64,000 nucleotides of DNA, taken from Rubidibacter lacunae KORDI 51-2. GTDB taxonomy: Bacteria > Cyanobacteriota > Cyanobacteriia > Cyanobacteriales > Rubidibacteraceae. The DNA lies in the NCBI RefSeq assembly GCF_000473895.1, contig NZ_ASSJ01000004.1:1-64000 (forward strand). The letters run 5' to 3'. Shown piece after piece: positions 12,279 to 32,685 of this stretch (positions are counted from its first letter, which is position 1; each line of letters starts with the position of its first letter). The notes under the pieces were generated by a model. That model saw only the letters and a list, made by a program, of their open reading frames with translations. It had not been told where the DNA came from and searched no databases. The position numbers were made by a program, and so were the translations under genes.

Positions 12279-12355
12279 GGGTATGGCGCGTGTGCTGGGG
12301 TATTCGGGTATGGTTCTGATGGTGTAGCGAGATTTGGTGACTCGCTGTTCTTGGA

Positions 12356-13150
12356 TTAGGGCACGAGCGTAGCACTGACCAGTTGCTGGGTATAAGGATG
12401 CTGAGGATCGTCCAAGACCTGGTCGGTTAAGCCAGCTTCCACCACCAGACCGTTTTGCATCACCAGCAACCGTTGCGCCAGTAACCGCACCACCCCGATG
12501 TCATGGGTGACGAGAATGACGCTGAGGTGGAGGGTGCGCACCAGCGATCGTATTAAATCCAAGAGGCGAGCCTGCACGGAAACATCCAGTCCCCCGGTGG
12601 GCTCATCCATCAGGACCAGCTGAGGACGGGTCACCAAAATGCGCGCGAGCTGCAAGCGCTGTTGCATGCCGCCGGAAAAGGTGCTCGGTAGGTCGTCCAT
12701 CCGCTGTTGTGGAATTTCTACTTGGGCTAACCACTGCAATGCCTCGGCGCGAATGTTGCCGTAATGGCGATCGCCCACGTCTAATAAACGCTCGCCAATG
12801 TTAGCTCCGGCGGTCACACGCAATCGCAACCCGTCGCGAGGATTTTGCTGCACAAACCCCCATTCTGTTTTCATCAGTTGACGACGGCGCGCTTCGGGTA
12901 AGGTCTGTAAGTTGAGGATTTGCCCTGCGCGATCGCGATAGCTCAGTTGCCCGCCATCAAGGGCAATTTGTCCGGCGATCGCCCTGAGCAAAGTACTTTT
13001 GCCGGAACCAGATTCACCAATAATGCCTAGCACTTGACTGGGATAGAGGTCAAATGAGATGCGATCGCAGGCGGCAATATCTCCATAGCGTTTCGTCAAA
13101 CCATCAACGGTTAACAACGGTGTAAGTAGAGAATTTTCTGTAGTCATCAC
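12356..13150 (-). CDS. phnK: C-P lyase complex ABC-type ATPase PhnK
   Basis: The 264-residue protein carries Walker A GESGSGKSTLLRA, the signature FSGGMQQRLQLA, Walker B LVLMDEPTGGLDVS and the switch histidine in LVTHDIGVV. In E. coli PhnK binds the core PhnGHIJ complex at PhnJ. It starts 10 bases after the phnJ stop, so the two are co-transcribed and probably made together. Length and motifs match the family. Confidence 0.96.
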   Translation of the reverse strand: MMTTENSLLTPLLTVDGLTKRYGDIAACDRISFDLYPSQVLGIIGESGSGKSTLLRAIAGQIALDGGQLSYRDRAGQILNLQTLPEARRRQLMKTEWGFVQQNPRDGLRLRVTAGANIGERLLDVGDRHYGNIRAEALQWLAQVEIPQQRMDDLPSTFSGGMQQRLQLARILVTRPQLVLMDEPTGGLDVSVQARLLDLIRSLVRTLHLSVILVTHDIGVVRLLAQRLLVMQNGLVVEAGLTDQVLDDPQHPYTQQLVSATLVP

Positions 13151-13160
13151 TCAAGTTTGG

Positions 13161-14048
13161 TTAGTCAAGTTTCCGGGGAGTTTGGGTCTGTTGCTGCTGG
13201 CGCTGGTGGCAATAATCGGTATCCGAACAGATCCAAAGGCGATCGCCCCGGTCGTTCGTTACAACTTCATCCAGATACGTATCCGTCGCTCCACAAAACT
13301 CACACGGTTGCTCCCAGCTTTCCACTGTGAAGGGATGGTCCTCAAAATCCAGGCTCTTCACCTTGGTGTAGGGCGGTAAGGCATAGATTCGCTTTTCCCG
13401 TCCCGCTCCAAAGAGTTGCAAGGCCGGGCTCATGTGCAATTTTGGATTATCAAAGCGGGGAATTGGGCTCGGTTTCATCAGGTAGCGATCGTGCACCATC
13501 ACCGGATAGTCGTAGGCGATCGCAATATGGCCAAAGCGCGTGACATCTTCATATAACCGCACGTACATCGGTCCATATTCTTCAAGAGCGTGCATTTTGT
13601 TGGCTTCGGTGCGTGAAGGTTCGATGAAGTACAACGGCTCCGGCATAGGCACTTGATAGACCATAATTTGACCTTCCCGTAAGGCGGTTTCAGGAATGCG
13701 GTGGCGCGTCTGAATCAACGTGGCCGCCTCGGTCTGCTCCGTGGTCTCCACGCCGCAGACTTTACGAAAGAAGCGGCGAATATTCACGGCGTTCGTTGTA
13801 TCGTCCGCCCCTTGATCGATCACTTTCAGCGTATCCGTTTGCCCAATCACCGAGGCAGTAACCTGGATGCCCCCCGTCCCCCAGCCATAGGACATGGGCA
13901 TTTCGCGGGAGCTAAAGGGAATTTGGTGTCCCGGAATCGCCACCGCTTTGAGCAAGGCGCGCCGGACAGAGCGCTTGGTCTGTTCGTCTAAATAAGCGAA
14001 GTTAAAACCGGGTTCGGGTGTGGTTGGAGTCGGAGTCGGTGGGTGCAT
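13161..14048 (-). CDS. phnJ: C-P lyase PhnJ, radical SAM enzyme
   Basis: PhnJ makes the actual C-P bond break: it converts α-D-ribose 1-methylphosphonate 5-phosphate to methane and the 1,2-cyclic phosphate. The 295-residue protein has the unusual radical SAM cluster motif C249-x2-C252-x21-C274, with the further conserved Cys280. The glycyl-radical residue (Gly32 in E. coli) corresponds to Gly40 in KAVAIPGHQIPF. All key residues are present, so the enzyme should work. An extra N-terminal Pro/Thr-rich segment of about 8 residues is not in E. coli. It sits between phnI and phnK. Confidence 0.97.
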   Translation of the reverse strand: MHPPTPTPTTPEPGFNFAYLDEQTKRSVRRALLKAVAIPGHQIPFSSREMPMSYGWGTGGIQVTASVIGQTDTLKVIDQGADDTTNAVNIRRFFRKVCGVETTEQTEAATLIQTRHRIPETALREGQIMVYQVPMPEPLYFIEPSRTEANKMHALEEYGPMYVRLYEDVTRFGHIAIAYDYPVMVHDRYLMKPSPIPRFDNPKLHMSPALQLFGAGREKRIYALPPYTKVKSLDFEDHPFTVESWEQPCEFCGATDTYLDEVVTNDRGDRLWICSDTDYCHQRQQQQTQTPRKLD

Positions 14049-14240
14049 GGCTAAATGAGGAAGAGTTCAGGTGTGGCGGGGTTTTGCAACCCAAGGTTGA
14101 GGATCGAGGTGGGGCATGGTTGATCCACCCAAGGTGGAGTTTCGGGGGTAGTCCTTCACAGTAAGGGTGGAGCAAGGGCAGAACCTGCACTCAGCCATGC
14201 TTCTCAGCCAGCACGAGCTTCACACTTCAGGACTGCCCAT

Positions 14241-15536
14241 TCATGGAGTGACCTCTGCAGGAGACTGGGGCATGTGTTGAGAGTCTGGGGTTGGGGAAGG
14301 AACGGAGGTATCCTCTGGAGCGGGATCGGCTGACAGGGGGTCAACTGGGGCGGCATCAGGTTTCGACGGATCCTGGGCTTGGCCGTATTCCCGACGCAGG
14401 GTGCGAATTAGATTCAGTTCCGCTTGGAAGTCGATGTAATGGGGGAGTTTGAGGTGCTGCACAAAGCCTTGGGCTTCGACATTGTCAGAGTGGAACAGCA
14501 CAAACTCTTCGTCTTGGGCGGGACCGTCGATTCCCTCATTTAGGTCCCGTGCTTGCAGGGCGCGATCGACCAGTGCCATCGCCATCGCTTTGCGCTCGTT
14601 ATAGCCAAAGGTGAGGCCGTATCCTTGGGTGAATTGGGGCGGAATCGTCTTGCTGCCCTTGAACTGGTTCACCATTTGCACTTCGGTGACGGTGATATCC
14701 GCGATCGCTACCTCAAATCCCAGTTCTTCTGGGCAAATTACCACCTCGACATCCCCCAGCCGCACTTCTCCCGCAAAAGGATGATTCTTGCCATAGCCGC
14801 GCTGGGTGGAATAGGCCATGGCGAGTAGGAAGCCCTCGTCGGCACGTGCCAGATTTTGTAAACGGGCATCGCGCTGCGTGGGCGTGGTGAGGGACTGGCG
14901 GGTGAGATCGAACGGGTCGGGAATTGGCGCGTAGGACTGCTTGCCATTGGGCGGGTCGGACGAATGAGCTGGGGTCGCATCGGTTGGGGCTGAATGGGTT
15001 GAGGATGTATTCGCGAGGAGTCCTACAGGATCGATCAGCTTTTCCCGAGCAAGAGTATTGGCAACTCTGGGCGTGGATTCTGAGACTGAAACAGGCGCGG
15101 TGGTGGGTGCCGTAAATTCGTTGGTTTCGGCGGCTAATTTGAAGTCCAATAAACGATGGACATAATCAAAAGTGGGTCCCAGTTTTTGGCCGCCGGGCGC
15201 ATCTTTGAAGATGGCGGAAATGCGGCGTTGCAATTGCATGCGATCGGTGTTCAGCGGTTTGCTGTAATACAAGCGGGGCAGGGTGGTCCGATAGGCACGG
15301 AGCAGAAAAGCCGCTTCGACCAAGTCCCCCCAGGCTTGTTTGATCGCCAGGGCGGCGAGGTCGGGATCGTACAAACTACCTTCAGCCATCACCCGATTTA
15401 CTGCAAGCTGCATTTGCTGCTTAATCTGTTCCAGTGATAGTTCTGGCACGGCAGGATCGCCGCGGCGTTTAGCCTTGAGCAGAGCTTCGGCATTTTGGAT
15501 GGCCTGTTCGCCACCTTTAACTGCAACGTAGGGCAT
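14241..15536 (-). CDS. phnI: C-P lyase subunit PhnI
   Basis: The 431-residue protein matches PhnI, which catalyses the nucleophilic exchange of adenine of ATP by phosphonate, helped by PhnG, H and L. Conserved segments include the start MPYVAVKGGEQAI, the block AYSTQRGYGKNHPFAGE, VEICPEELGFE-like VVICPEELGFEVAIADIT, and GYGLTFGYNERKAMAMALVD. It is longer than usual because of a linker (about residues 170-220) rich in Thr, Ser and Pro and a Pro-rich tail of about 35 residues. A 192-base gap separates it from phnJ, with no recognisable gene. Confidence 0.95.
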   Translation of the reverse strand: MPYVAVKGGEQAIQNAEALLKAKRRGDPAVPELSLEQIKQQMQLAVNRVMAEGSLYDPDLAALAIKQAWGDLVEAAFLLRAYRTTLPRLYYSKPLNTDRMQLQRRISAIFKDAPGGQKLGPTFDYVHRLLDFKLAAETNEFTAPTTAPVSVSESTPRVANTLAREKLIDPVGLLANTSSTHSAPTDATPAHSSDPPNGKQSYAPIPDPFDLTRQSLTTPTQRDARLQNLARADEGFLLAMAYSTQRGYGKNHPFAGEVRLGDVEVVICPEELGFEVAIADITVTEVQMVNQFKGSKTIPPQFTQGYGLTFGYNERKAMAMALVDRALQARDLNEGIDGPAQDEEFVLFHSDNVEAQGFVQHLKLPHYIDFQAELNLIRTLRREYGQAQDPSKPDAAPVDPLSADPAPEDTSVPSPTPDSQHMPQSPAEVTP

Positions 15537-15555
15537 TGATTTCTCCGAGGTTTAC

Positions 15556-16013
15556 CTATTCATCTACGGGCATCGAAAAACTCTTGACCCACTGCTCAAA
15601 TCCCAAAGATTCTTAGCAAGCATGGGCTTTTTTATGCTCGAGGCTGGTCGAGAGGGGCATTTCGTAGCAGCCCGCCGCTCGAGATTGCGCGATCGCATGT
15701 TGCATCATGTGCCTCCCAATCCCTTGTCTGTGAAAGTCGGGGGCAACGGCGACTCCTGCCACCCCGCCCGCCGAGGTGCCGGTTGCACCAGAGAATCCAT
15801 ACTCAACAAGAAATATGTGCCTACGGGGGACTGCGGCAGTGCCGTCAATATGACCAGCCCGATTGGGTGGTTAGGGTATTGCTGCAGGCGCTGAAACAAC
15901 TGCTCGGCCAGAGCGAGGTCGTCCCTGGGTTCGCGATCGATCTCGACTTCGTAATTCAACCGCAGCACTGCCGACAAATCACCAAGCTTCGTTTCCCCCC
16001 TCAACACTGACAT
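15556..16013 (-). pseudogene. GNAT acetyltransferase, broken (PhnO-like position)
   Basis: The minus strand between phnH and phnI codes for a GNAT acetyltransferase in two frames. The first part begins MSVLRGETKLGDL and runs to about 15790. The second, shifted frame carries the acetyl-CoA loop VAPDFHRQGIGRHMM and the C-terminal motif KAHAC*ESLGFEQW, where TAA at 15613-15615 stands for the usual Tyr or Phe. The final stop is TAG at 15556. So there are two lesions, one frameshift and one nonsense codon. The ATG overlaps the phnH stop by one base (TAATG), so the gene was once part of the operon. E. coli phn operons carry the GNAT phnO; whether this was the same activity is an inference. Confidence 0.8.
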
Positions 16014-16609
16014 TACACGCCTTCATGAGGATTGTTGACACGAGCCGTGCGGGGTAAACCCAACACTCGATCGGCGGCAAACCACCAGAGATCTAAACCT
16101 AGGGGATAGTGTTGGGTCATCGCTTGCCATTGCTGCCAGAAGGGTCGCGCCAATGGCGATTGGATGGTGATAGTTTCTAAAATGCCGGGACCTTGGAGGG
16201 TCACAGCATGCGTTCCAGTCATTGTCGGTAGTTGCACGAGCAAACTGGTCGACGCTTCCGGATATTCGGCTGAGCCCCAATAGAATTCATCTAAGTTGGG
16301 CAGAGTGCTCGCATCGGTAATCAAAGCAAAATCTGACTGCTGCGACACGTCCGTAAACCGACAGCCGGTATGAAATACCAGCCAGGCACGAACCGCTTCA
16401 GACGTGCCGGGTTGCAACCAAACCTGCGTTTCCAGGTCAAGCAGCGTCAGGCACGCCGCCGCGCAGCTAGGGGTCAACTCCGGCGGATGGGGCGGCGATA
16501 CCGTGGTTTGAGGGATTCCCGGTCGTGAAAGGGCATCCAGCAACGCTCGAAAGGTGCGTTGGGCATCATGTACTGGATCGCGAAAGCCAGGTAGTTGGGT
16601 GGTTGGCAT
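16013..16609 (-). CDS. phnH: C-P lyase subunit PhnH
   Basis: The ATG at 16609 gives 198 residues starting MPTTQLPGFRDPVHDAQRTF, which fits PhnH; an upstream in-frame start would add a 34-residue leader without similarity. Family blocks are FRALLDALSRPGIPQ, FHTGCRFTD and LDEFYWGSAEYPEAS. PhnH is part of the core PhnG2H2I2J2 complex. The stop codon overlaps the start of the GNAT pseudogene. It is about 1.2 kb from phnG, because a broken FAD oxidoreductase gene lies between them, which is unusual since phnG and phnH are normally adjacent. Confidence 0.93.
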   Translation of the reverse strand: MPTTQLPGFRDPVHDAQRTFRALLDALSRPGIPQTTVSPPHPPELTPSCAAACLTLLDLETQVWLQPGTSEAVRAWLVFHTGCRFTDVSQQSDFALITDASTLPNLDEFYWGSAEYPEASTSLLVQLPTMTGTHAVTLQGPGILETITIQSPLARPFWQQWQAMTQHYPLGLDLWWFAADRVLGLPRTARVNNPHEGV

Positions 16610-16714
16610 AGTGGCTTCGAGGAAAGGAGGGAGAGGTGGATGGTGGACAGGCAAACGCGTGAATGAGTAACGGCGTAAGTGAGTTCGGAATCCACAGCTA
16701 AACAGTCGCAACTG

Positions 16715-17223
16715 GAGCAGGCTGGTTTGGAACTTGGCTTACTACCTCACCTTCCCGTGGAACCTCAATCATCTCCGAGCTGTTCCACAGTCCGGGCAGC
16801 AATCCGTCCGTAATAACGGCGGGGCTGTAGGCAGCCACTCGGCAGTGGCGAGCAGTTTAACCAATCTTTGGTTTGTCCTTTAGTTGCTATCAATTCTTCC
16901 AGCTCCAATTTTCTTTAGTGCGATAGTCCAAATGAAGGGAACCGGATTCCTCTAGGTGAATTCCAACAATCGGCGCGATCGTTCGCCAGATGGCAAGGGC
17001 TTGGCAAGCGCAATCGAATAACTGACCCGGGGACTGACCAAGCGGTCGAAATCATGCCGAAATTGTGAATCGCGGCACCTACAGCGGCAGGATTTTGTTG
17101 CCAAGCAGTCACCCGGTAGCCCTGATTGAAGGCAGCGAAGGCATGAACCATCCCCACAATTCCGGCTCCAACGGTTGCAATTTCAGTGGTTTTTAACGGC
17201 ATGATTTGGTCCATCTCCGGCAA
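16715..17223 (-). pseudogene. FAD-dependent oxidoreductase (TIGR03364-like), broken
   Basis: The first part has the Rossmann motif VGAGIVGMVHAFAAFNQGY followed by AVGAAIHNFGMIS, typical of the TIGR03364 clade of FAD oxidoreductases that occur beside phosphonate genes. After a frameshift near 17035 the similarity continues in another frame (QSPGQLFDCACQALAIW, then LEESGSLHLDYR). A third frame gives SPAVITDGLLPGLWNSSEM, which fits the middle of the family. The C-terminal half is gone. So this is a truncated relic with at least two frameshifts. The family is proposed to oxidise aminophosphonates; that activity is lost here unless another copy exists. Confidence 0.75.
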
Positions 17224-17265
17224 TCACAACAGAACTTAAGCTTGGCTGGCACGTCCAACTTTGCC

Positions 17266-17388
17266 TCAAGGTAGTGTTGAGGCCGCTTGCTGCTGCTTTG
17301 GTAAGCTTTTCCCGGCTTCGCGCCGGTCTTGCACCGCGGTAACAACCATGTCAAAGACTTCTAATTGAATTGCCAGTTTGGCTTCCAT
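17266..17388 (-). CDS. Small ORF of 40 residues coupled to phnG
   Basis: The ATG at 17388 lies one base after the TGA of phnG (TTGAGATG), an arrangement typical of translational coupling. The product begins MEAKLAIQLEVFDMVV, is predicted to be helical and ends in a Gln/Ala-rich stretch, with TGA at 17266. I do not recognise it. It may be the 5' remnant of a larger gene truncated when the FAD oxidoreductase region decayed, or a genuine small operon protein. Confidence 0.4.
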   Translation of the reverse strand: MEAKLAIQLEVFDMVVTAVQDRREAGKSLPKQQQAASTLP

Positions 17389-17389
17389 C

Positions 17390-17893
17390 TCAACCTTCTC
17401 CTCGGAGCAGGGTAAAGAAATTTACGCGGGTCGATTCCACTTCTGCCGCCGCTGCTTGCCGATTCGCCTGAGCCGATACCTGTAACGGTTGAATCACCTG
17501 CCGCTCCACACGGTCCTGCCAGTCAACCTGTTGGAGCAGCGCATCACAAACGGCGGCAAGTTCGGCATGGCGAAGGGAGCGTCCGGCCACATAGCCGAAG
17601 CCGGTCAAAGCTTCTTCATTCGTCGGCGTTCCCGACGCTGATGGCACTAATTGCACCACACAGCGAACGATCGTCATCTCCCCCAGGTTGAACGGCTGCC
17701 CGGTTCCCTCAGCTCGCCCACGCACCATCGCCAGCCCGATTTCGGGCGATCGCAGAAATTCATAGGCCGGCAAGTCACCCAGCGAGGTTACACCGGCTTC
17801 CAACTCAGACAAAGCTGCCTTGGCCAAAACCGAGATCCAGCCCGATCTCGATAAGCCCGTTAGCGTCATGGTTCGCGCTGCGTTCAACATCAC
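17390..17893 (-). CDS. phnG: C-P lyase subunit PhnG
   Basis: The 167-residue product matches PhnG, the smallest core subunit, which acts with PhnH, I and L in forming the ribose-phosphonate intermediate. Family blocks are SRSGWISVLAKA, PEIGLAMVRGRAEGTGQPFN and GEMTIVRCVVQL, then GYVAGRSLRHAELAAVCDALLQ. Possible starts are GTG 17893 or ATG 17890; neither has a clear ribosome binding site, and ATG 17869 is a further option. It is the first gene of the minus-strand operon, and its upstream DNA holds the PhnF operator and a Pho-box-like repeat. Confidence 0.93.
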   Translation of the reverse strand: MMLNAARTMTLTGLSRSGWISVLAKAALSELEAGVTSLGDLPAYEFLRSPEIGLAMVRGRAEGTGQPFNLGEMTIVRCVVQLVPSASGTPTNEEALTGFGYVAGRSLRHAELAAVCDALLQQVDWQDRVERQVIQPLQVSAQANRQAAAAEVESTRVNFFTLLRGEG

Positions 17894-18020: not shown

Positions 18021-18749
18021 ATGCGCCAAGATGCTCTGCCTCTGTATTTGCAAATTGCCGACGAACTGCGGCGAAATATTAATGATGCGGTGTTTAAGGT
18101 GGGCGATCGACTGCCGACGGAAAGTGAGCTGAGCGAACGGTTCGGGGTCAATCGTCACACCCTACGGCGGGCGATCGAGGTGCTGCGGCAAGAAGGCATG
18201 GTTGAAGTCGAACGCGGCCGGGGCACCTTTGTGATGGCTGACCCGATCGCTATGACCATTGGTAAGCGGGTTCGCTTCACAGAAGCGCTCAAGGCGCAAT
18301 CCCTCCAGCCCCACTGGCAGGTACTTCGGGCGCTGGAAATTCCGGCAGATGCCAAATTGGCTAAGCAGTTAGAGATCGAGATCGGAGCCGCCGTGGTGGT
18401 GTTTGAACGGCTTAGTTCCATTGACGCTATTCCGCTCGGTCTTTCCACTAGTCACTTCCCCAGTCAGCGATTTCCAGGGTTGCTGGAGCATTGCCAAACC
18501 TCTCGTTCGGTCTCAAAGCTTTTGCAACAGGAATATGGATGCGATCACCTGCGGCGGCAAACCCGTCTTTCTGCCCGCGTAGCACAAACAAGCGATGCTC
18601 GACTGCTTAAAATGCCAGCCAATCAACCCATTCTCCTGTCAGAGTCGATCAACGTCGACCAGAAGGGGGCGGTCATTGAATATGGGGTGACTCGCTTGCG
18701 GGGCGATCGCATGGAACTCGTGCTGGAAAACGAAGACGATTCCATGTAA
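18021..18749 (+). CDS. phnF: GntR/HutC-family transcriptional regulator PhnF
   Basis: The 242-residue regulator has an N-terminal winged helix-turn-helix (PLYLQIADELRRNI…RLPTESELSERFGVNRHTLRRAIEVLRQEG) and a C-terminal UTRA ligand domain with GAAVVVFERLSSIDAIPLG and the end ESINVDQKGAVIEYGVTRLRGD. It is transcribed divergently from phnG. PhnF proteins repress phosphonate or phosphate-uptake genes. A tandem GTCTAGA site lies 80-100 bases upstream, so autoregulation is likely. Confidence 0.92.
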   Translation: MRQDALPLYLQIADELRRNINDAVFKVGDRLPTESELSERFGVNRHTLRRAIEVLRQEGMVEVERGRGTFVMADPIAMTIGKRVRFTEALKAQSLQPHWQVLRALEIPADAKLAKQLEIEIGAAVVVFERLSSIDAIPLGLSTSHFPSQRFPGLLEHCQTSRSVSKLLQQEYGCDHLRRQTRLSARVAQTSDARLLKMPANQPILLSESINVDQKGAVIEYGVTRLRGDRMELVLENEDDSM

Positions 18750-18782
18750 AAACTCGGTTGCAGAAGGAGCTTGAATGCAGCC

Positions 18783-18812
18783 CTTAAACAACCCTTTACT
18801 TAAGCTTAACCG
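18783..18812 (+). promoter_or_regulatory. Pho-box-like repeats upstream of phnCDE
   Basis: Three octamers in direct repeat with 3-base spacers: CTTAAACA (18783), CTTTACTT (18794) and CTTAACCG (18805). The 11-base phasing matches the cyanobacterial Pho box. The site is about 180 bases before phnC, so phosphate starvation control of the transporter is likely even though phnF lies just upstream. Confidence 0.6.
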
Positions 18813-18909
18813 CCAGTACAATCAATCTTAAACTCGCGATCGGATGATGCATTTGGCTTGTAGCGGATTACAGCTGTAAAAGTTGTCTGGGCATCCTACA
18901 CCTACATTA

Positions 18910-18932
18910 AACACATCCTTGTTAGATGTGTT
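18910..18932 (+). promoter_or_regulatory. Inverted repeat in the phnC leader
   Basis: A perfect 8-bp inverted repeat AACACATC/GATGTGTT with a 7-base spacer lies 59 bases before phnC. No T-run follows, so it is not an ordinary terminator. It may be an operator or an mRNA stem. Confidence 0.4.
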
Positions 18933-18991
18933 GAAGGTGATGAGATGTCGAAAAGTCCGGCGTCTTAACGTTCAACGGTCAAACCACTGTC

Positions 18992-19837
18992 ATGCGATTA
19001 GCTACGGAGTCTGCTTTAGAGAACGCTTTTGCCGCTCCTGCGGTGCAGGTTCGGAAATTAACAAAATCGTTCAAAGGACGTGCTGCTCTCAGCTCTGTTG
19101 ACTTAAACATTGCGGTAGGAGAGATGGTGGCCTTGGTTGGGGCTTCGGGGTCAGGGAAGTCTACTCTGTTGCGCAATCTGAACGCGTTGCATCAAGCAGA
19201 GGTTGGCACCGTAGAGATTTTTGGCAGCCCCCTGCAAGTAGATGGAAAGCTGCACTCCAAGACAAGACAGCTCCGCAGCCAAATTGGCTTTATTTTTCAG
19301 CAATTTAATCTGGTTAATCGGTTAACCGTGCTGGAAAACGTTTTAGTGGGCGGGCTCTCTCAAGTTCCACTCCTACGTTCGTTGCGCCGTGGCTTCAGCA
19401 AAACTGAAAAGCTACGGGCGCTCTCGGCACTGGAACGAGTTGGCATTTTGGATCAAGCTTACAAACGAGCTTCAGCTCTGTCCGGCGGTCAGCAGCAGCG
19501 AGTGGCGATCGCCCGCTGCTTGATGCAGGGAGCGCAAATCATTTTGGCTGATGAGCCAATCGCCTCGCTAGATCCTGAATCAGCCCGCAAGGTAATGGAA
19601 CTGCTAACTTGCTTGAATGAGAGCGAGGGGATCACCGTGGTCACTTCCCTGCACCAAATCCAAATGGTGCGGCGTTATTTCAAGCGAGCCGTAGCATTAC
19701 GCGATGGTCGAGTTCGTTTCGATGGTCTCATGATTGATTTGGACGACCGCCAATTAAACGAAATCTACGGTGCTGCTGCTGAAGAGTTAGTTCGCAGCGG
19801 TCATGGTGAAGTGTTCACGGCGTCCAAAGCATATTGA
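18992..19837 (+). CDS. phnC: Phosphonate ABC transporter ATP-binding protein PhnC
   Basis: The 281-residue ATPase has Walker A GASGSGKSTLLRN, the Q-loop FIFQQFNLVNRLTVLENVL, signature LSGGQQQRVAIARCL and Walker B ILADEPIASLDPES. The run VNRLTVLENVLVG is characteristic of PhnC. It powers uptake through PhnE with substrate delivered by PhnD, the next two genes. An upstream Pho-box-like repeat suggests phosphate control. Confidence 0.95.
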   Translation: MRLATESALENAFAAPAVQVRKLTKSFKGRAALSSVDLNIAVGEMVALVGASGSGKSTLLRNLNALHQAEVGTVEIFGSPLQVDGKLHSKTRQLRSQIGFIFQQFNLVNRLTVLENVLVGGLSQVPLLRSLRRGFSKTEKLRALSALERVGILDQAYKRASALSGGQQQRVAIARCLMQGAQIILADEPIASLDPESARKVMELLTCLNESEGITVVTSLHQIQMVRRYFKRAVALRDGRVRFDGLMIDLDDRQLNEIYGAAAEELVRSGHGEVFTASKAY

Positions 19838-19931
19838 TCTGCTGCCCTTACCGTCCTAAAAATTGCCGTCAATATGGTACGTATTGAGCGGTGTCATTTA
19901 GTTGAGTTGAAATTCGCACAAGGATCGATCC

Positions 19932-20990
19932 ATGACATATTCGACACTAACAAGAGTAGCGGCTCGTCTTACTTTGCTGGTCACTGGAGCCGCATTAATT
20001 GCAAGCTGTGGCGGCACCCCAACCCCAGATGAATCAGGTAGCGATACCACTGCCACCGCCGAGGCATCCGGTGATGCTTGTGCTCCTGAAATTGCTGAAA
20101 TTGACTTCGGTATCATTTCCACCGAATCTCAGACCAACTTGGAAGAACTATGGGAACCGTTCTTGGCTCTTATGTCCGAGGAAATGGGACGCCCAGTGAA
20201 CAGTTTCTATGCCACCGATTATGCCGGTGTGATTGAAGCGATGGGTGCTGGCAAGATTCAAATTGCATGGTACGGCGGCAAGTCTTACATCGAAGCAGCT
20301 AAGCGCTCTGGTGCGGAAGCCTTTGCTCAAACTGTGGATAGCGATGGTTCCAAGGGGTACTACGCACACTTGGTAACCAATGTTGATAATCCGATCGTCT
20401 CTGAAATCGATCTTGAAGCAGGAGACGGAGATCGGTACGTCATTGAAAATGCGGCTGAATTGACCTTTGCCTTCAACGACCCGAACTCAACTTCTGGCTT
20501 CTTGGTACCTAGCTACTATGTCTTCGCCCAGAACGGGGTTAATCCGAATGAAGCCTTCAGCGAACTGATCTTTGCCGGTAGCCACGAAGCAACTGCGCAA
20601 GCTGTAGCCAACAATCAAGTTGATGTTGCTACCAACAACAGTGAATCGATGTCTCGTCTGCAAAAAACTGATGCTGAGGCGTTTGAGCAGGTGCAAATTA
20701 TTTGGACCTCGCCTCTCATTCCTAGCGATCCAATCGCCTACAAAAGCGATCTTCCGGATTGTTTGAAGGAGGAGTTCCAAGACTTCTTCTACAATATTTC
20801 CGATGAATCGGTGTTAGGACCTTTGGATTGGTCTCGTTTTGATGAAGCTGGCGACGAGGATTGGAATCCTATTCGCGAGTTGGATATTGCACGGAAAATC
20901 GAAGAGATCAAGAACGACGGCGCTCTCAGTGAAGACGACAAAACCGCCAAGATTAAGGAATTAGGTAAGCAACTAGAGGAGTTGCAATAA
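19932..20990 (+). CDS. phnD: Phosphonate-binding lipoprotein PhnD
   Basis: The 352-residue protein starts with a lipoprotein signal (lipobox ALIASC, Cys26) and a Thr/Glu-rich linker. The binding domain follows, with FGIISTESQTNLEELWEPF, the ligand-region motif VNSFYATDYAGVIEAM and NDPNSTSGFLVPSYY, all diagnostic of PhnD. It captures phosphonates outside the inner membrane for PhnCE. The C-terminal 35 residues are a charged helix. It lies 94 bases after phnC. Confidence 0.95.
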   Translation: MTYSTLTRVAARLTLLVTGAALIASCGGTPTPDESGSDTTATAEASGDACAPEIAEIDFGIISTESQTNLEELWEPFLALMSEEMGRPVNSFYATDYAGVIEAMGAGKIQIAWYGGKSYIEAAKRSGAEAFAQTVDSDGSKGYYAHLVTNVDNPIVSEIDLEAGDGDRYVIENAAELTFAFNDPNSTSGFLVPSYYVFAQNGVNPNEAFSELIFAGSHEATAQAVANNQVDVATNNSESMSRLQKTDAEAFEQVQIIWTSPLIPSDPIAYKSDLPDCLKEEFQDFFYNISDESVLGPLDWSRFDEAGDEDWNPIRELDIARKIEEIKNDGALSEDDKTAKIKELGKQLEELQ

Positions 20991-21049
20991 GTTTCACAAT
21001 ACTCCTCCAAGACTTCCGCCTGAATTCAACCAGAGCGCGCTCATTTTTC

Positions 21050-21074
21050 CCGGGGTGAGCTAATCTTACCCCGG
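21050..21074 (+). terminator. Hairpin between phnD and phnE
   Basis: A perfect 7-bp GC-rich stem CCGGGGT/ACCCCGG with an 11-base loop lies in the 308-base phnD-phnE gap. It is not followed by a clear T-run, so it may dampen transcription or protect the phnD mRNA end rather than end transcription. The rest of the gap holds nothing recognisable. Confidence 0.5.
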
Positions 21075-21298
21075 AAGTTTGTAAATTCCCAAGACTGACT
21101 AAGCAATTCGAATGACCAAAACTCATCGCGGTCGGTAAAAACCAGCCAAACAAACCGCTTGCCGACTTTTTATCATCATAATTAGCGATGTTTTCGCCTT
21201 AGCCTCGACTCAGTGGAGGCTTGAGTGAGATGCCTGTTGATCTGTCTGCTAAAACAGACTTGATGCATACGTAAACGATACCGAGAATTTTGTGTAGG

Positions 21299-22138
21299 AT
21301 GATGCAAAATCAAGGGGATAGCGCCCCAACCCCAACCACCCAACCCTCAGCCGACGTTCGTCGAGTTATGGCAGAGGAAAAGCCCTTTTGGACAATTTGG
21401 AGTATTGGCGGACTCCTTCTAAGTATTGCGATTCTTCTTTATTCAGGCATTATCAGCGACCTTAGTTTTGTTGAGCTGATTGAAGGCACGGGTTCGATGG
21501 TCAACTTGATCTTGAAGTTTTTTCCACCGGACTTCCTTCGATGGTGGAGCTACTTCCAAGCAACGATCGAGACGATCGCAATGGGAATTTGGGGAACTTT
21601 ACTGGCGGTGATTGTCGCGATTCCCTTATCAATTTTGGCATCAGAAAACGTTTGTCCCACTTGGGTGGTGTTCCCTACCCGCCGCATTTTGGATGCGATG
21701 CGGGCAATTAATGAGTTGGTGTTTGCCCTGATCTTCATCGTGGCAGTTGGACTCGGCCCTTTTGCTGGCGTATTGGCGTTGTTTATTCATACCGCCGGTA
21801 CCCTAGGTAAGCTGTTTTCAGAGGCAATCGAGGCGATCGATCCTGGTCCGGTCGAAGGTATCCGAGCCACAGGCTCCAGCAAAGTTCAGGAAGTTATCTT
21901 TGGCATAATTCCGCAGGTGGTCCCGCTGTGGACATCTTTTACGTTGTATCGTTTTGAATCTAACGTGCGGTCCGCTTCGGTATTAGGGATTGTGGGCGCA
22001 GGTGGTATTGGGGTTGCGTTGTATCAGAATTTTCGGGCGTTCAATTACCAAAATGTTTCCGCAATTTTGATCATTCTGATCGTCACGGTGGGTGCGATTG
22101 ATACGATTTCAGCACGTATCCGCAACCGATTGGTTTAA
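21299..22138 (+). CDS. phnE: Phosphonate ABC transporter permease PhnE
   Basis: Starting at ATG 21299 (a second ATG follows at 21302) gives a 279-residue permease. It has an N-terminal helix (about 35-58), the PhnE-type core beginning WSYFQATIETIAMGIWGT and the EAA loop EAIEAIDPGPVEGIRATGSS, ending with VLGIVGAGGIGVAL and a last helix. About six membrane segments are visible. It forms the membrane channel for PhnCD. The gene is separated from phnD by an unusually long gap with a hairpin. Confidence 0.93.
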   Translation: MMQNQGDSAPTPTTQPSADVRRVMAEEKPFWTIWSIGGLLLSIAILLYSGIISDLSFVELIEGTGSMVNLILKFFPPDFLRWWSYFQATIETIAMGIWGTLLAVIVAIPLSILASENVCPTWVVFPTRRILDAMRAINELVFALIFIVAVGLGPFAGVLALFIHTAGTLGKLFSEAIEAIDPGPVEGIRATGSSKVQEVIFGIIPQVVPLWTSFTLYRFESNVRSASVLGIVGAGGIGVALYQNFRAFNYQNVSAILIILIVTVGAIDTISARIRNRLV

Positions 22139-24272: not shown

Positions 24273-24412
24273 CACAAAATCCTCCAAAAAATAACACGTA
24301 AAGCCCGAACACGGTCATATGGCTTGAAAATCTGTCTCCCTGAGCGGTAGAGAGTTTTCGGGTTAGGGCAATAATCTTGGGATGTATCCCAACAAACTGC
24401 TGGAAGGCATTT

Positions 24413-25697: not shown

Positions 25698-26051
25698 TCA
25701 ATCTCGCTCAGTCAAGTCCAGATCGGCCACCGCAATGACCTGATTGCGAGTACAACATTCCTCAAACAAGAAATCAATCAGCGATCGCAGCACCTTAGGC
25801 TCCACCGCATACCAAATCCACTGCCGATCCTTTTGTGCCGTCACGATCCCGACCTGACGCAATTTATCCAAGTGATGAGACAGCGTCGGAGCCGCAACCT
25901 CCAACTCTTTTTGAATGTCCCCGGCAGGCAAGCCCTGGGGGTGCGCTGACAACAGCAACCGGACAATGCGCAGTCGCGAGGGTTGTCCCAGGGCAGCAAA
26001 GGCGCTGGCAATATCATCCGTTGTGGATGAGGAGGTATTTGGCATTTCCAT
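25698..26051 (-). CDS. arsR: ArsR-family arsenic-responsive repressor
   Basis: The 117-residue protein is a winged helix-turn-helix regulator with ALGQPSRLRIVRLLL, the recognition region VAAPTLSHHLDKLRQVGIV and the wing KDRQWIWYAVEP. Near the C-terminus the pair EECCTRN could bind arsenite, as in ArsR types that use C-terminal Cys residues. I chose ATG 26051 (or 26045) instead of the frame start at 26075, because the latter lies inside a palindrome that looks like the operator. It probably controls itself, the permease and arsH. Confidence 0.88.
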   Translation of the reverse strand: MEMPNTSSSTTDDIASAFAALGQPSRLRIVRLLLSAHPQGLPAGDIQKELEVAAPTLSHHLDKLRQVGIVTAQKDRQWIWYAVEPKVLRSLIDFLFEECCTRNQVIAVADLDLTERD

Positions 26052-26071
26052 ATTTTGACAATAATCGAAAT

Positions 26072-26083
26072 ACATTGCAATGT
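26072..26083. promoter_or_regulatory. Candidate ArsR operator
   Basis: A perfect 12-bp palindrome ACATTGCAATGT lies 21 bases upstream of the chosen arsR start. ArsR proteins bind such short dyads at their own promoters. Confidence 0.5.
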
Positions 26084-28574: not shown

Positions 28575-28615
28575 AATAACGTGGGGTTAACCTGGAGTCG
28601 ACTAAACGTTAACCT
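28575..28615 (+). promoter_or_regulatory. Pho-box-like repeats upstream of phnM
   Basis: Two exact GTTAACCT octamers lie at 28586 and 28608, 22 bases apart, with weaker octamers in phase at 28575 (AATAACGT) and 28597 (GTCGACTA). The 11-base phasing is the pattern of the cyanobacterial Pho box. The site ends about 50 bases before phnM, just upstream of the putative PhnF operator. Confidence 0.6.
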
Positions 28616-28666: not shown

Positions 28667-29803
28667 ATGGCCGAAGCGATTTTCACCAACTACCGCTTAC
28701 AACTACCAGATGAAGAGGTGCTTGGTACCCTCGTTGTGTGCGATGGAGCGATCTCTGATATCCAGCCAGGGGTCGTCAGCCGTGGCCAAGATGGTGCCGG
28801 TGACTATCTACTGCCGGGTCTGGTAGAGCTGCACACCGATAACTTCGAGCAGCGGTTATCGCCCCGTCCAAAGGTTTACTGGCCCATGGAGATAGCAGCG
28901 GTTTACCACGATCGCGATTTGGCCGCGGCGGGCATCACCACCGTGTGTGACGCGATCGCGGTGGGCGACATCACCCCTGCCTCCATGCGTATGACCCAGT
29001 TCGGCCCCATGATCGATACCATTCACCAAGGTCAAATCGAGGGACGGTTTGCGGTGGATCATCGGCTTCATCTGCGCTGCGAATTGGGCTACGAGCATGT
29101 ACATGCGGTAACCGAGCCCTATGCAACCCATCCCCTCCTGGCCCTGATTTCGTTGATGGACCATACCCCCGGACAGCGTCAGTTTGCTCGGGTAGATAAG
29201 TACAAGGAGTATTACCAAGGCAAGCACGGTGTGAGCGAAGCAGAGATGGAGGGCTTTATTCAATTGCGCGTCGATAACCAGCAACGCCATGCTGTGGACA
29301 ATCGGCGTAAGCTCGTTGAGCTGACCCAGACCCACCAAATTTGCCTTGCCAGCCACGATGATGCCACCCCAGAGCATGTCAAGGAGTCCCTGCAAGATGG
29401 GGTGAAAATTGCCGAGTTTCCGACCACGCTAGCGGCGGCAAATGAAGCCCACCAGCATGGTTTGCAAGTATTGATGGGGGCACCAAATTTGATTCTCGGC
29501 GGGTCCCACTCGGGCAATGTGTCTGCAATGGAATTGCTCGAGCATGATTTGGTCGATATTATTTCCTCAGATTACGTGCCCCAAAGCTCGATCCAGGCAA
29601 TGTTCATCATTGCCGAGCAACAGGATAAGCCGCTTCATGAAGCGATGCGTTATTTCACCTCGAATCCGGCAAAAGCGATCGGGATGGCTGCCGATCGCGG
29701 CAGTTTGGCGATCGGGAAACGCGCCGATTTCATCACTATCCACCACGACGGTGTAGTGCCCAGACTCACTTCAGTCCGTCGACAGGGCAAACGGATCGCT
29801 TGA
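28667..29803 (+). CDS. phnM: α-D-ribose 1-methylphosphonate 5-triphosphate diphosphatase PhnM
   Basis: The 378-residue amidohydrolase removes pyrophosphate from the ribose-phosphonate triphosphate before PhnJ acts. The first metal motif is LPGLVELHTDNFEQRL, and the PhnM-specific run is SPRPKVYWPMEIAAVYHDRDLAAAGIT. Later motifs include LASHDDATPEHV and the last metal Asp in ISSDYVPQS. Full length matches E. coli PhnM. The promoter region carries both a Pho-box-like repeat and a PhnF operator, so it is probably in the same regulon as the main phn operon 10 kb away. Confidence 0.95.
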   Translation: MAEAIFTNYRLQLPDEEVLGTLVVCDGAISDIQPGVVSRGQDGAGDYLLPGLVELHTDNFEQRLSPRPKVYWPMEIAAVYHDRDLAAAGITTVCDAIAVGDITPASMRMTQFGPMIDTIHQGQIEGRFAVDHRLHLRCELGYEHVHAVTEPYATHPLLALISLMDHTPGQRQFARVDKYKEYYQGKHGVSEAEMEGFIQLRVDNQQRHAVDNRRKLVELTQTHQICLASHDDATPEHVKESLQDGVKIAEFPTTLAAANEAHQHGLQVLMGAPNLILGGSHSGNVSAMELLEHDLVDIISSDYVPQSSIQAMFIIAEQQDKPLHEAMRYFTSNPAKAIGMAADRGSLAIGKRADFITIHHDGVVPRLTSVRRQGKRIA

Positions 29804-29949
29804 CCCACTGCTCGACCCACTGCTTGACCCACTTGAGTTTGCCAGATTCAAGCCATGCATAATATCGAAGCTCTTTAATTAAAGCCTAATGACTTCGCGG
29901 GTTTTGTAAGCTCAATCCACACTAAGGCTGAACTGCCCTTTCCCCCTGA

Positions 29950-31122
29950 ATGCCAATGCAACCGACGGACTTAGCGCCCAACCTGGCTTTGCAAGGTGCC
30001 ACCGTTTTAACCCCCAACGGCTGGTTGGACGAAACTACTGTTCTAATCCGCGAGGGTAAATTTGAGGCGATCGGTCACCTGCCCAAACCAAGCGGCTATA
30101 TGTCAATTGATGTTACCGGACTCCAGCTGCTGCCGGGTCTGGTCGATATTCACGGCGATGCCTTCGAACGGATGATTTGTCCGCGTCCGGGGATAATGTT
30201 GCCCCTGTCAATGGCCTTGGTAGAAAACGATCGGGCCTTGTTGAGTGCGGGCATCACCACTTTTTTTTACTCGATTACTGACTCATTTGAACCGGGTTTG
30301 CGTAGTCGAGACATGGCACGTCAACTAATTGGCCGCCTGACCCAAACGAACAATGGTTTGCGAGTTGATAGTCGCATCCACATTCGTCACGAACAAGCCA
30401 ATACTGCAAATCATGACGAACTCTGCCAGTGGTTAGAATCGCGTGCCGTCACTCTGCTCTCACTGAATAATCATTTGCCGCCAACCTTGGATGATGAAAC
30501 CTTGCAAAGATACACCAAGGGATTGCGCCAACGGGTTAAGTTGTCCGAAGCCGAGATTCGCGATTTGATTGCCGTTGCCTACGATCGCCAAGTTGAGGGT
30601 CTGGTGCAGTGTGAGGATTTAGTGCAGCGCTGCCATCAGTTTGGGATTCCAGTGGCCTCCCATGATGACGAAACCGCTGCCGATGTCGCTAAAAGTGGGG
30701 AACGGGGGGTGGCGATCGCCGAATTTCCGGCTTCCGTTGCCTTAGCAAAACAATCCCGTGCCTATGGCGCGGCAGTGCTGATGGGTGCACCCAATCTTGT
30801 GCGGGGTGGGTCTCATGTGGGCTACATGAGTGTGGCTGCTGCTGCCCAAGCCGGGGTGCTCGATTGTCTCTGCTCGGACTATCACTACCCCTCCCTTTTT
30901 CACGCGCCCTTTCGCTTAGCAGAACAGGAATTGATGTCCTTCGAGCAGGCATGGCGTTGTGTTTCGGAATATCCGGCCAAGGCAGCAAAGTTAGGACAAC
31001 AGAAAGGGCAAATTGCCCCTGGCTATGATGCCGACTTTCTGTTGCTATCGCCCAATGGAGACCTGCCGAATGCAATTCGGGCGGTTTACATTGCAGGGCG
31101 GTTGGTGCAAAAGTCCTCCTAA
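29950..31122 (+). CDS. Second PhnM-like amidohydrolase
   Basis: The 390-residue paralogue of PhnM keeps the metal frame but with different details: LLPGLVDIHGDAFERMICPRPG in place of ELHTDN, then ALVENDRALLSAGITTFF, VASHDDETAADVA and a final SDYHYPSLF. It diverges clearly from the phnM just upstream, so it is an old paralogue and not a recent copy. Such proteins are usually labelled PhnM, but the substrate may differ. It follows phnM after 146 bases and precedes a PhnZ-like gene, which suggests a side pathway for a different phosphonate. Confidence 0.82.
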   Translation: MPMQPTDLAPNLALQGATVLTPNGWLDETTVLIREGKFEAIGHLPKPSGYMSIDVTGLQLLPGLVDIHGDAFERMICPRPGIMLPLSMALVENDRALLSAGITTFFYSITDSFEPGLRSRDMARQLIGRLTQTNNGLRVDSRIHIRHEQANTANHDELCQWLESRAVTLLSLNNHLPPTLDDETLQRYTKGLRQRVKLSEAEIRDLIAVAYDRQVEGLVQCEDLVQRCHQFGIPVASHDDETAADVAKSGERGVAIAEFPASVALAKQSRAYGAAVLMGAPNLVRGGSHVGYMSVAAAAQAGVLDCLCSDYHYPSLFHAPFRLAEQELMSFEQAWRCVSEYPAKAAKLGQQKGQIAPGYDADFLLLSPNGDLPNAIRAVYIAGRLVQKSS

Positions 31123-31187
31123 TTCGGCTTTTGTTCGGTCAACCAGCCCGCTCTACCAACTTAGAATCAATAGATATCGACAACATC

Positions 31188-31754
31188 ATGGAACAGACGC
31201 TCACAACACTTACAAGTATTTTGTCGGTCTATCGCGATCGCGGGCGCGCCCAATATGGCAGCGAAGCGGTCAGCCAATTAGAGCATGCGTTGCAATGTGC
31301 AACCTTGGCTCAAACGGCTGGGCAATCAGAGGCAATGATTACCGCTTGTTTGCTGCACGACTTCGGACACTTGGTGCACCATCTTGGGGACGATCCGGCT
31401 TTACTCGGCATCGACGATCGCCACGAAGCCCGCGCTATTCCAGTTTTAGAACAGCTCTTCCCCGCCGCCGTAACCCGACCCATCCAGCTCCATGTCGCGG
31501 CTAAGCGCTACCTCTGTGCCGTGGATCCAGACTATTGGGACTCCCTGTCTTTGGCTTCAAAGCGTAGCCTGGAACTCCAGGGTGGGGTGTACTCGGCTGA
31601 AGCCGCTGCCGCCTTTATTCAACAACCGTATGCCGAGCAAGCCGTGCAACTTCGCCGCTGGGATGACCTCGCGAAAGTCGCGAATCTAAGCACACCCGAT
31701 TTGGATCGTTTTCTGCCCTGCCTCCAAGTCGCCAGCCAAACCAACCCGGTTTAA
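31188..31754 (+). CDS. PhnZ-type HD-domain mixed-valence di-iron oxygenase
   Basis: ATG 31188 gives 188 residues of an HD-domain protein of the phosphonate type. It has the block YGSEAVSQLEHALQ (Tyr23, Glu26, His33), the HD motif LLHDFGH (His57, Asp58, His61), His79 in DRHEAR, His102 and Lys106 in LHVAAKRYL and Asp159/160 in RRWDDLAK. This pattern matches PhnZ, which oxidatively splits (R)-2-amino-1-hydroxyethylphosphonate to glycine and phosphate. PhnZ needs the hydroxylase PhnY, which is not in this window. Related enzymes act on other hydroxyphosphonates, so the substrate is open. Confidence 0.8.
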   Translation: MEQTLTTLTSILSVYRDRGRAQYGSEAVSQLEHALQCATLAQTAGQSEAMITACLLHDFGHLVHHLGDDPALLGIDDRHEARAIPVLEQLFPAAVTRPIQLHVAAKRYLCAVDPDYWDSLSLASKRSLELQGGVYSAEAAAAFIQQPYAEQAVQLRRWDDLAKVANLSTPDLDRFLPCLQVASQTNPV

Positions 31755-31854
31755 GCTGCCGCGATCGCCTTAAAGCTCCAAGTCCCTCTCCAGGAATGAT
31801 TCGCCCCTATCACATGCCGGACCAGGCCATACCTTTCCGGTAACCTGACCCACC

Positions 31855-32685
31855 ATGACCCTGATTGCCCAAATTAGCGATCTTCACGTTCAGACTCCTG
31901 GACAACTCGCCTACGGTGTCGTTGATACCAATCGTCTCGTAGCGCAAGCGATCGCCCAAATCAACCAACTTCAGCCCCATCCCGATGCGATCGTTGCCAG
32001 CGGGGATTTAGTGCAGCACGGCACCATCGACGAATATGAAACCTTGAAGACCATCCTGTCTCCACTGCGATCGCCCCTATTTCTGATGCCCGGCAACCAT
32101 GACTGTCGGGCAAACTTGCGTCAGGTTTTCACCCATCAGCCTTTCAGTTTGAGTCCCTTAGGGCACCTTAGCTATGCGGTTGATTGCGATCCATTGCGAT
32201 TGATCTTGCTGGATAATACACACCCCAAAAAGAAAGCTGGTTGGTTGGATGAGCAACGACTCAAATGGCTTGCACATCAACTTGAGGAAGCCCCTCAAAG
32301 CCCTACCATTATATTTATGCATCATCCACCTTTTCTCACTGGTATTCCGTGGATGGATCGGCACCAGTTAGAGGGGGAGAGGGAACTCAAAGCATTGGTT
32401 GCTAAACATCAGCAGGTTGAGCGAGTTAGCTGCGGCCATTTGCATCGAGGGATGTATTGTCGTTGGGCAGGAGCGATCGCCAGTGCTCAACCAAGCTTGG
32501 TTCATCAAGGAGGATTAGAGTTGCGACCTGATACACCCAGCCAGTTCGTCATGGAACCTCCAGCCTATCAATTACACATCTGGAAGAACCAGAGTCTAAT
32601 TTCCCACATAGCTTTTATTGGCAAATTCGACGGTCCCTATCGTTTTTCTGATGGGAGAAGAGTAACTTCATTAACACATAACTAG
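31855..32685 (+). CDS. Calcineurin-like metallophosphoesterase
   Basis: The 276-residue enzyme has the two-metal phosphodiesterase motifs in order: ISDLHV, ASGDLVQHG, MPGNHD, MHHPPF and CGHLHRG. This is the class III cyclic-nucleotide/glycerophosphodiester phosphodiesterase type (CpdA, GpdQ). It lies 100 bases after the PhnZ-like gene in the same direction. No phnP is seen in the window, and phnP normally opens the ribosyl 1,2-cyclic phosphate made by PhnJ, so this enzyme could stand in for it. That is an inference from position only. Confidence 0.8.
   Translation: MTLIAQISDLHVQTPGQLAYGVVDTNRLVAQAIAQINQLQPHPDAIVASGDLVQHGTIDEYETLKTILSPLRSPLFLMPGNHDCRANLRQVFTHQPFSLSPLGHLSYAVDCDPLRLILLDNTHPKKKAGWLDEQRLKWLAHQLEEAPQSPTIIFMHHPPFLTGIPWMDRHQLEGERELKALVAKHQQVERVSCGHLHRGMYCRWAGAIASAQPSLVHQGGLELRPDTPSQFVMEPPAYQLHIWKNQSLISHIAFIGKFDGPYRFSDGRRVTSLTHN

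Follow-up and report, generated by a model that had tools for sequence, protein, structure and literature searches.

How does a cyanobacterium that shows no PhnN or PhnP over curated cut-offs complete the breakdown of phosphonates, and why do two PhnM proteins, an HD-domain oxygenase and a phosphodiesterase (PDE) stand in a row next to its carbon-phosphorus (C-P) lyase genes? We address this question for the first 64,000 nucleotides of contig NZ_ASSJ01000004.1 of Rubidibacter lacunae KORDI 51-2. This stretch, hereafter the window, comes from contig C4; the draft genome totals 4.15 Mb in 99 contigs and is 99.63% complete. A preliminary description of the same DNA had named the four genes, and all are present on the + strand within positions 28667 to 32685:

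28667..29803, + strand: phnM1, an orthodox PhnM (ribosyl-phosphonate triphosphate diphosphatase); TIGR02318, 488 bits (cut-off 390.55).
29950..31122, + strand: phnM2, a divergent PhnM paralogue with HGD for HTD; NF011987, 505.6 bits (cut-off 253).
31188..31754, + strand: PhnHD, a PhnZ-like HD-domain oxygenase; TIGR03276 (Phn-HD), 237.9 bits (cut-off 214.6).
31855..32685, + strand: a GpdQ/CpdA-type metallophosphodiesterase, the proposed PhnP replacement; PF00149, 62.5 bits (cut-off 21.5).

The row is a real, conserved variant of a known system, in which the new element is a candidate GpdQ-type substitute for PhnP and the extension is the presence of PhnHD in C-P lyase operons. The explanation that we favour, with a little better than even confidence, is that the PDE replaces PhnP, that PhnHD is an accessory enzyme for ready-made hydroxyphosphonates and that PhnM2 is a second diphosphatase. 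The row would then be the tail of the C-P lyase locus rather than a separate pathway. PhnM1 would perform the usual trimming of ribosyl-phosphonate triphosphate, PhnJ would then release 5-phosphoribosyl 1,2-cyclic phosphate (PRcP), and the PDE would open PRcP instead of PhnP, possibly continuing to ribose 5-phosphate and inorganic phosphate (Pi), which would also explain the missing PhnN. PhnHD would cleave ready-made alpha-hydroxyphosphonates, the likeliest being (R)-1-hydroxy-2-aminoethylphosphonate (R-HAEP) or a close analogue, to Pi and an acid, and would therefore need no PhnY*; PhnM2 would be a second PhnM-type diphosphatase with an altered pocket. What is observed is the gene content, the conserved order, the conserved catalytic residues and the absence of PhnP and PhnN at curated cut-offs, whereas every reaction is inferred.

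The C-P lyase genes themselves are split over two strands:

11550..17893, - strand: phnG, H, I, J, K and L, the C-P lyase core, running from G to L; from the open reading frame (ORF) list, with BLAST counterparts of all six in relatives.
18021..22138, + strand: phnF, phnC, phnD and phnE; TIGR02325, TIGR02315, TIGR03431 and TIGR01097, all over their NCBIfam cut-offs.

With phnM1, the set phnGHIJKLM is present. PhnJ (493.6 bits) and PhnI (513.7 bits) are both over cut-off and free of stops, and phnG, H, K and L were assigned by position and by BLAST to relatives. The preliminary description placed the row in this locus. It does stand beside it, but the core (17893 down to 11550) lies about 11 kb upstream on the opposite strand, and phnE is about 6.5 kb from phnM1, with TauE-, ars- and exb-type genes between them.

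The earlier remark that no phnN or phnP is visible extends to the whole draft genome at curated cut-offs. The best match to the PhnP model TIGR03307 reaches 26.6 bits of a cut-off of 272.25 and the best to the PhnN model 63.7 bits of 156, and we rejected a PhnP or PhnN encoded elsewhere on these sub-cut-off matches. Such matches are common: the PhnP model gives them in 10 of 13 genomes and the PhnN model in 13 of 13, each also in 11 of 14 controls, and they are presumably other metallo-beta-lactamase and kinase families.

To place the row in its wider setting, we surveyed 386 genomes of the phylum (G numbers) and the loci from a genome-contig scan (L numbers). TIGR03276 matches at E 1e-50 or better occur in 13 of the 386 genomes, seven of them over the curated cut-off. 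PhnM matches at E 1e-40 were found in 14 genomes; the HD gene is present in six of these 14, and in all six it lies in the C-P lyase locus. In the contig scan, the best named matches of the window's HD gene are cyanobacterial, among the matches listed. The best 80 of 406 confirmed relatives form the scanned set of HD loci, which leans towards the query's own relatives; within the stretch available, 37 of the 80 have C-P lyase genes and 30 have phnJ. Neighbours were recounted by tblastn on all 80 loci with query genes of our own, up to 1.2 kb away. The nearest recognized same-strand gene before HD is phnM2 in 22 loci (in one, L120, a gene tail at a contig end), phnM1 in six, phnE in five, a TIGR03364-type flavin adenine dinucleotide (FAD) oxidoreductase in five, a 2H-type gene in four and a PhnX-like gene in two. 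After HD come phnJ in 14, a PDE in five, a GNAT gene in three, an FAD oxidoreductase in two and a PhnX-like gene in two. The remainder, 36 loci before HD and 54 after it, have no gene resembling the queries within 1.2 kb, though the flank is not necessarily empty.

The exact combination was said not to be known, which was fair, yet the row is not unique. The order phnM1-phnM2-HD-PDE recurs in Tildeniella torsiva (L100), Leptolyngbya FACHB-60 (L101) and Leptolyngbyaceae MAG.088 (L103), directly following phnGHIJKL in the first two and phnKL in the third. Three of the four genes are found in L102 (phnM2-HD-PDE on a 3 kb contig that ends there), L109 (Leptolyngbya PCC 7375, phnM1-HD-PDE) and L105 (phnM1-phnM2-HD, then a methyltransferase). 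In L101, L102 and L103, the HD and PDE frames overlap by 4 bp. The PhnJ of the window is 92% identical to those of L100 and L101 and 82-83% identical to the Nostoc-type PhnJ, and in the tree both PhnM proteins of the window group with Leptolyngbya-type loci and not with the Nostocaceae-type genomes of their own order. From the PhnJ identities and the agreeing PhnM1 and PhnM2 trees, the phn cluster was probably transferred as a whole from one order to another.

The case for the PDE as a PhnP replacement rests first on the protein and its placement. Among solved structures it is closest to the entry group 2dxl/2zo9/3d03 (phosphohydrolase by label; E 1.5e-44), of which we take 2dxl/3d03 to be GpdQ; with the PF00149 match, this bears out the GpdQ/CpdA-type reading made at the outset. 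The equivalog cut-offs are not reached: SpdA (NF050112) scores 160.5 of 400 and CpdA (PRK11148) 123.2 of 225. The protein begins right in its metal motif, with no long leader, and homologues 57-66% identical directly follow HD in L100, L101, L102, L103 and L109. The earlier suggestion that the PDE may replace PhnP thus gains indirect support from the conserved placement, the overlap with HD in three relatives, the absence of PhnP over cut-off and the occurrence of a 2H esterase in some sister operons.

These 2H-type proteins of 175-190 amino acids stand beside phnM1 or HD in L121, L128, L129, L141, L126, L123 and L096. Five of the seven were scanned against Pfam, giving two weak 2'-5' RNA ligase matches and three without any. 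The proteins carry two HxT/S motifs, and their predicted fold (predicted local distance difference test, pLDDT, 87.6) matches 2H esterases. In the PDB the model fits best to the Arabidopsis enzyme 1fsi/1jh6 (E 1.4e-4), the cyclic phosphodiesterase of Appr>p, whose target, a ribosyl 1'',2''-cyclic phosphate, is the group also present in PRcP. A PDE is present in five and a 2H protein in six of the 80 HD loci, with the window adding one PDE and L096 one 2H; the PDE and this 2H family never share a locus among those examined. Searches of the window genome gave no match for the 2H family of the phn loci at E 1e-10 or for DUF1045 at E 1. Published work describes the RcsF 2H protein as a PhnP analogue (PMC3840354, PMC10574752), reports that ribosyl 1',2'-cyclic phosphates can be hydrolysed by the 2H proteins found in operons without phnP (PMC10574752) and records that Trichodesmium, without PhnNOP, grows on methylphosphonate (PMC10574752).

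Phosphatase-like genes are also found nearby: an inositol-phosphatase-like gene precedes the 2H gene in L141, a HAD phosphatase follows HD in L129, and a HAD gene lies 0.7 kb after HD in L131. Such neighbours would fit a PhnN-free ending at ribose 5-phosphate and Pi. Separately, the Nodularia phn cluster (G284) has a different ORF at L088:8470-9093; it shows a weak DUF1045 match, contains two HxTL motifs and is probably a further 2H esterase replacing PhnP.

Several points weigh against the explanation that we favour. The functions given to all four proteins are predictions, and GpdQ-type enzymes are promiscuous. The PDE association is narrow (six loci including the window), and many HD-bearing C-P lyase loci, notably in Nostocales, have neither the PDE nor this 2H family nearby and so must open PRcP some other way. 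G170, which is close to the window in its phn genes, has both a PDE homologue (49%) and a 2H gene, but on contigs other than that of the phn cluster. The 2H family, found in 5 of the 386 genomes, is not tied to C-P lyase: G255 and G262 have it without a PhnM match, and G070 has it with PhnM but without PhnJ or PhnI. PhyH genes occur elsewhere in four of the six genomes with HD in a C-P lyase locus. Finally, the gaps in the window's row are 146, 65 and 100 bp, from phnM1 through to the PDE, so its co-transcription is not proven.

The alternative that survives best has the PDE acting upstream, freeing phosphonates from phosphonate monoesters or from glycerol or polysaccharide diesters for C-P lyase and PhnHD, while an unrelated housekeeping enzyme opens PRcP. 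We consider it unlikely. In its favour, GpdQ, as we take the closest solved relative to be, would act on glycerophosphodiesters and phosphonate monoesters, and most HD-bearing C-P lyase loci manage without a nearby PDE or 2H gene. A replacement for PhnP accounts better for the sister operons, in which a 2H esterase with a fold matching a ribosyl 1'',2''-cyclic phosphodiesterase stands beside phnM1 or HD, and for a genome lacking PhnP over cut-off, DUF1045 and this 2H family alike; the absence of a long leader in the PDE may also speak against an upstream role.

PhnHD raises the question of a second, oxidative pathway, which the preliminary description had offered as the other reading of the row. 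The ORF opens at TTG 31131, but alignment makes ATG 31188 the more likely start. Only two solved relatives appear at E 0.001, TmpB (6npa, E 4e-36) and PhnZ (4mlm, E 9e-23). H33, H57, D58, H79, H102 and D159 occupy the H...HD...H...H...D diiron-ligand positions, and Y23 and E26 form the YxxE motif, so that Phn-HD membership is clear from both score and residues; the cofactor is presumably a mixed-valent diiron centre. We compared 12 positions: six for the diiron ligands, those of the YxxE loop and four putative phosphonate-binding ones. Every tested residue is present in the window protein, as the PhnZ pattern noted earlier would have it. Among relatives, 11 of the 12 are identical in 73 of 73 HD ORFs and E26 in 72 of 73, these counts covering 73 of 86 loci because the ORF caller missed the HD ORF in the other 13. 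The diiron-ligand motif and Y24/E27 are taken from PMC8177086, according to which the E of YxxE contacts the amino group of the substrate in PhnZ and TmpB; by analogy, this favours an amino-hydroxyphosphonate as the substrate of PhnHD.

The hydroxylase partner of a PhnY*-PhnZ pathway was not recognized near HD. A PhnY-like gene is near HD in 0 of the 80 loci (two PhnY queries, E 1e-8). The window genome has one PhyH gene, on contig C44 and unlinked to the row; it shows no detectable similarity to the two picocyanobacterial PhnY queries and no NCBIfam match at E 1e-20, and a PhnY elsewhere in the genome was rejected on this ground, which upholds the earlier statement that PhnY is lacking. The findings that would have told against the row, phnP and phnY elsewhere in the genome and four genes not kept together in relatives, did not materialize. 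PhnHD, which has no PhnY*-like neighbour and is found within C-P lyase operons, therefore looks like an accessory oxygenase for ready-made alpha-hydroxyphosphonates and not half of a PhnY*-PhnZ pair, the latter also because G042 and G170, with HD in the C-P lyase operon, gave no PhyH match in either genome. Comparable cases are in print: lone PhnZ homologues in phnWX/phnWAY clusters, never with PbfA, are suggested to process R-HAEP (PMC8154272, Table 1), and PhnHD without PhnY* is described in phosphonatase clusters (PMC11203657).

A complete oxidative pathway would pair PhnHD with the unlinked PhyH hydroxylase, leaving a link to C-P lyase that is only positional. This oxygenase family is known from PhnY*-PhnZ pairs, five small surveyed genomes (picocyanobacteria by inference) have PhyH directly before HD, and PhyH genes also occur elsewhere in G051 (four), G233 (one) and G338 (six), all with HD in a C-P lyase locus, although the window's single PhyH was the only one of these examined further. 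We nonetheless judge it improbable, given the dissimilarity of the C44 protein to the PhnY queries, the lack of a PhnY-like gene near HD and the two genomes without a PhyH match. What stands of the oxidative proposal is the full set of tested PhnZ-type residues; what does not is the separate pathway, for HD is part of C-P lyase operons and no PhnY*-like gene adjoins it. As a side observation, a broken second Phn-HD-like copy adjoins a CbiC gene in G000 (C51, about 30564-30915), and the surrounding 20 kb gave no phn-like match.

The two PhnM proteins differ in a consistent way. PhnM2 scores 324.9 bits against TIGR02318, under its cut-off, and is recognized instead by the PhnM subfamily model NF011987. 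In an alignment of 44 M1-type and 32 M2-type sequences (typed by best BLAST hit) with E. coli PhnM, 55 columns are more than 90% conserved and identical in both types, including H56/H68, D58/D70, H135/H144, H166/H175, H230/H238, H281/H289 and D302/D310. Another 21 are conserved but different, including T57/G69, N59/A71, H81/N93 and C138/H147; the first of these is the HTD/HGD change, correctly reported before and now seen to be clade-wide. At 18 of these 21 columns E. coli PhnM agrees with M1, and at none of them does it carry the M2 residue. In the tree, cyanobacterial M2 form one clade of 31 rows with support 100/100, whereas cyanobacterial M1, phnM1 of the window included, fall with E. coli and other proteobacterial PhnM; several long branches meet in this tree, the split between the types rests on the 100/100 branch, and the placement of the G177, G320 and G381 proteins is unsure. 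From the separate clade and the retained histidines and aspartates, M2 is an old paralogue whose metal site looks intact, and its pocket may well have changed; a solved PhnM structure from which to read residue roles was not found.

PhnM2 is probably a second triphosphate-trimming enzyme. In G143, which has PhnJ and PhnI, the sole PhnM-family match at E 1e-40 is the M2 gene next to phnCDE, and no orthodox PhnM was matched (four of six candidates scored); this suggests that M2 may be able to perform the PhnM step. The genes of G143 (L091:9700-13794, L193) are scattered over three places, as phnCDE-phnM2, phnJKL and phnI. We ruled out a dead copy, since the conserved H, D and E residues of PhnM are kept, and likewise an obligate tie to HD: G284 and G143 have M2 next to phnCDE but no HD there, and in G051 M2 accompanies phnF/phnH copies, while HD occurs without M2 in G170, L104 and L109.

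The four genes might instead be passengers on a phn island gained by horizontal transfer, its extra genes being duplicates or generic hydrolases that share no common role and the PDE an ordinary CpdA/SpdA-type cyclic-nucleotide esterase. The probable movement of the cluster, read from the grouping of the window's PhnM proteins with Leptolyngbya-type loci, and a second PDE paralogue (30% identical) elsewhere in the genome would suit this. It sits poorly with an order and catalytic residues kept in loci of different families, with the three HD-PDE overlaps and with SpdA and CpdA scores far under their cut-offs, and we give it little credence. Less probable still is an oxygen-using branch of C-P lyase in which PhnGHI(L) load the phosphonate onto ribose, PhnM2 and PhnHD work in series on ribosylated hydroxyphosphonates, the one trimming the triphosphate and the other taking over from PhnJ to break the C-P bond with O2, and the PDE finishes the ribosyl ester.

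Compared with E. coli phnCDEFGHIJKLMNOP, the window has the same phnC-M genes, with phnM1 grouping with E. coli PhnM, but it lacks PhnN and PhnP over cut-off, adds PhnM2, PhnHD and the GpdQ-type esterase and has its PhnO-like gene in two frames. It resembles PhnY*-PhnZ, TmpA-TmpB and GmPhnY*-PhnZ in that its HD protein is homologous to PhnZ/TmpB, with the diiron-ligand positions and YxxE; unlike them, it has no PhnY*-type partner beside it and sits with C-P lyase. The PDE shares fold family and metal motifs with the class III phosphodiesterases GpdQ (as we take 2dxl/3d03 to be), Rv0805 and SpdA, but it is under the SpdA and CpdA cut-offs and linked to C-P lyase. Another non-PhnP enzyme, PhnPP of Eggerthella lenta, reportedly opens PRcP and then removes a phosphate; it is said to belong to the PHP family, whose fold is unrelated to that of the window PDE.

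The marine cluster B3_TF_MPn_2, with its RcsF/2H operon (PMC3840354), is similar in that its operon lacks phnP, encodes a phosphodiesterase of another kind and also has a second phnM-like gene and a GNAT gene; the replacement there is 2H-type, whereas here it is a metallophosphoesterase of a different fold, and no HD protein is named in the available part of that source. The PhnHD phosphonatase clusters (PMC11203657) and the lone phnZ of phnWX/phnWAY clusters (PMC8154272) have the same family or close homologues without PhnY*, with R-HAEP proposed, but those clusters are hydrolytic, and the HD protein of the window is placed within a C-P lyase locus, alongside PhnM2. C-P lyase clusters with another phnM-like gene have been published (PMC3840354, PMC5649143), so that the second PhnM, the 2H replacement of PhnP and PhnHD without PhnY* are all already in print. 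Among the papers listed in our search of the open-licence literature, we recognized none that describes a GpdQ-type esterase in PhnP's place or PhnHD inside a C-P lyase operon; the figure of 28 cyanobacterial phn clusters in PMC5955973 lay outside this search.

If the explanation that we favour is true, the PhnP step has been taken over by a further unrelated enzyme family, after PhnP, the 2H RcsF type and, reportedly, PhnPP. This would bear on how cyanobacteria without PhnN and PhnP complete methylphosphonate breakdown, a methane-releasing process. C-P lyase clusters would then also be seen, like hydrolytic ones, to recruit a PhnZ-type oxygenase so as to use hydroxyphosphonates.

The interval between phnE and phnM1 holds a TauE-like half gene, ArsH, a protein without a family match, an ArsP-type permease, an ArsR-like gene, two ExbB/D-like genes and a transposase-like remnant, the ArsR-like, ExbB/D-like and transposase-like ones being named by eye. 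Oscillatoria CS-180 (L104) runs phnFCDE, a 144-aa ORF, phnM1 and HD, and this ORF resembles the TauE-like gene of the window (29%, E 4e-6), so the ars/exb block looks like an insertion into an older phnE-phnM1 run.

Pho-box-like sites, scored with a degeneracy of our own choosing (not that of PMC1906773) against the consensus CTTAACCT (PMC1906773), include the following two:

28586..28615, + strand: a Pho-box-like repeat of three 8-mers at 11-bp spacing, the outer two GTTAACCT, ending 51 bp before phnM1; score 19 of 24.
18783..18812, + strand: the best site of the window, upstream of phnC; score 21 of 24, and the only one scoring at least 20.

Four sites score at least 19 in the 64 kb, against a mean of 0.25 in 60 simulations with the same dinucleotide make-up; of the remaining two, one lies between phnG and phnH at 16856 and the other within phnJ at 14028. 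The row may thus be under Pho control.

Other observations concern the core and its surroundings. Between phnG and phnH, two pieces in different frames (17193-16725, - strand; 53% over 60 aa and 35% over 104 aa) match a TIGR03364-type FAD oxidoreductase and are probably a decayed gene of a type seen in phosphonate clusters. A PhnO-like GNAT is matched in two reading frames at 16013-15565 (- strand), either a broken gene or an assembly error; in relatives, this gene lies between phnH and phnI. The 221-aa protein encoded at 23622-24287 (- strand) matches no Pfam or NCBIfam family and is shared by four cyanobacterial phn loci, with further copies at L039:11016-11681, L088:9235-9846 and L126:7489-7875, directly after phnM1 or HD in two; its fold model is poor (pLDDT 57.4), and a search with such a model gave no informative match. 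ArsH, the ArsP-type permease and the ArsR-like gene lie within the phn region at 22899-26075, and in G170 a protein of the 221-aa type and ArsH come after HD; there may be a link between phn loci and arsenic genes.

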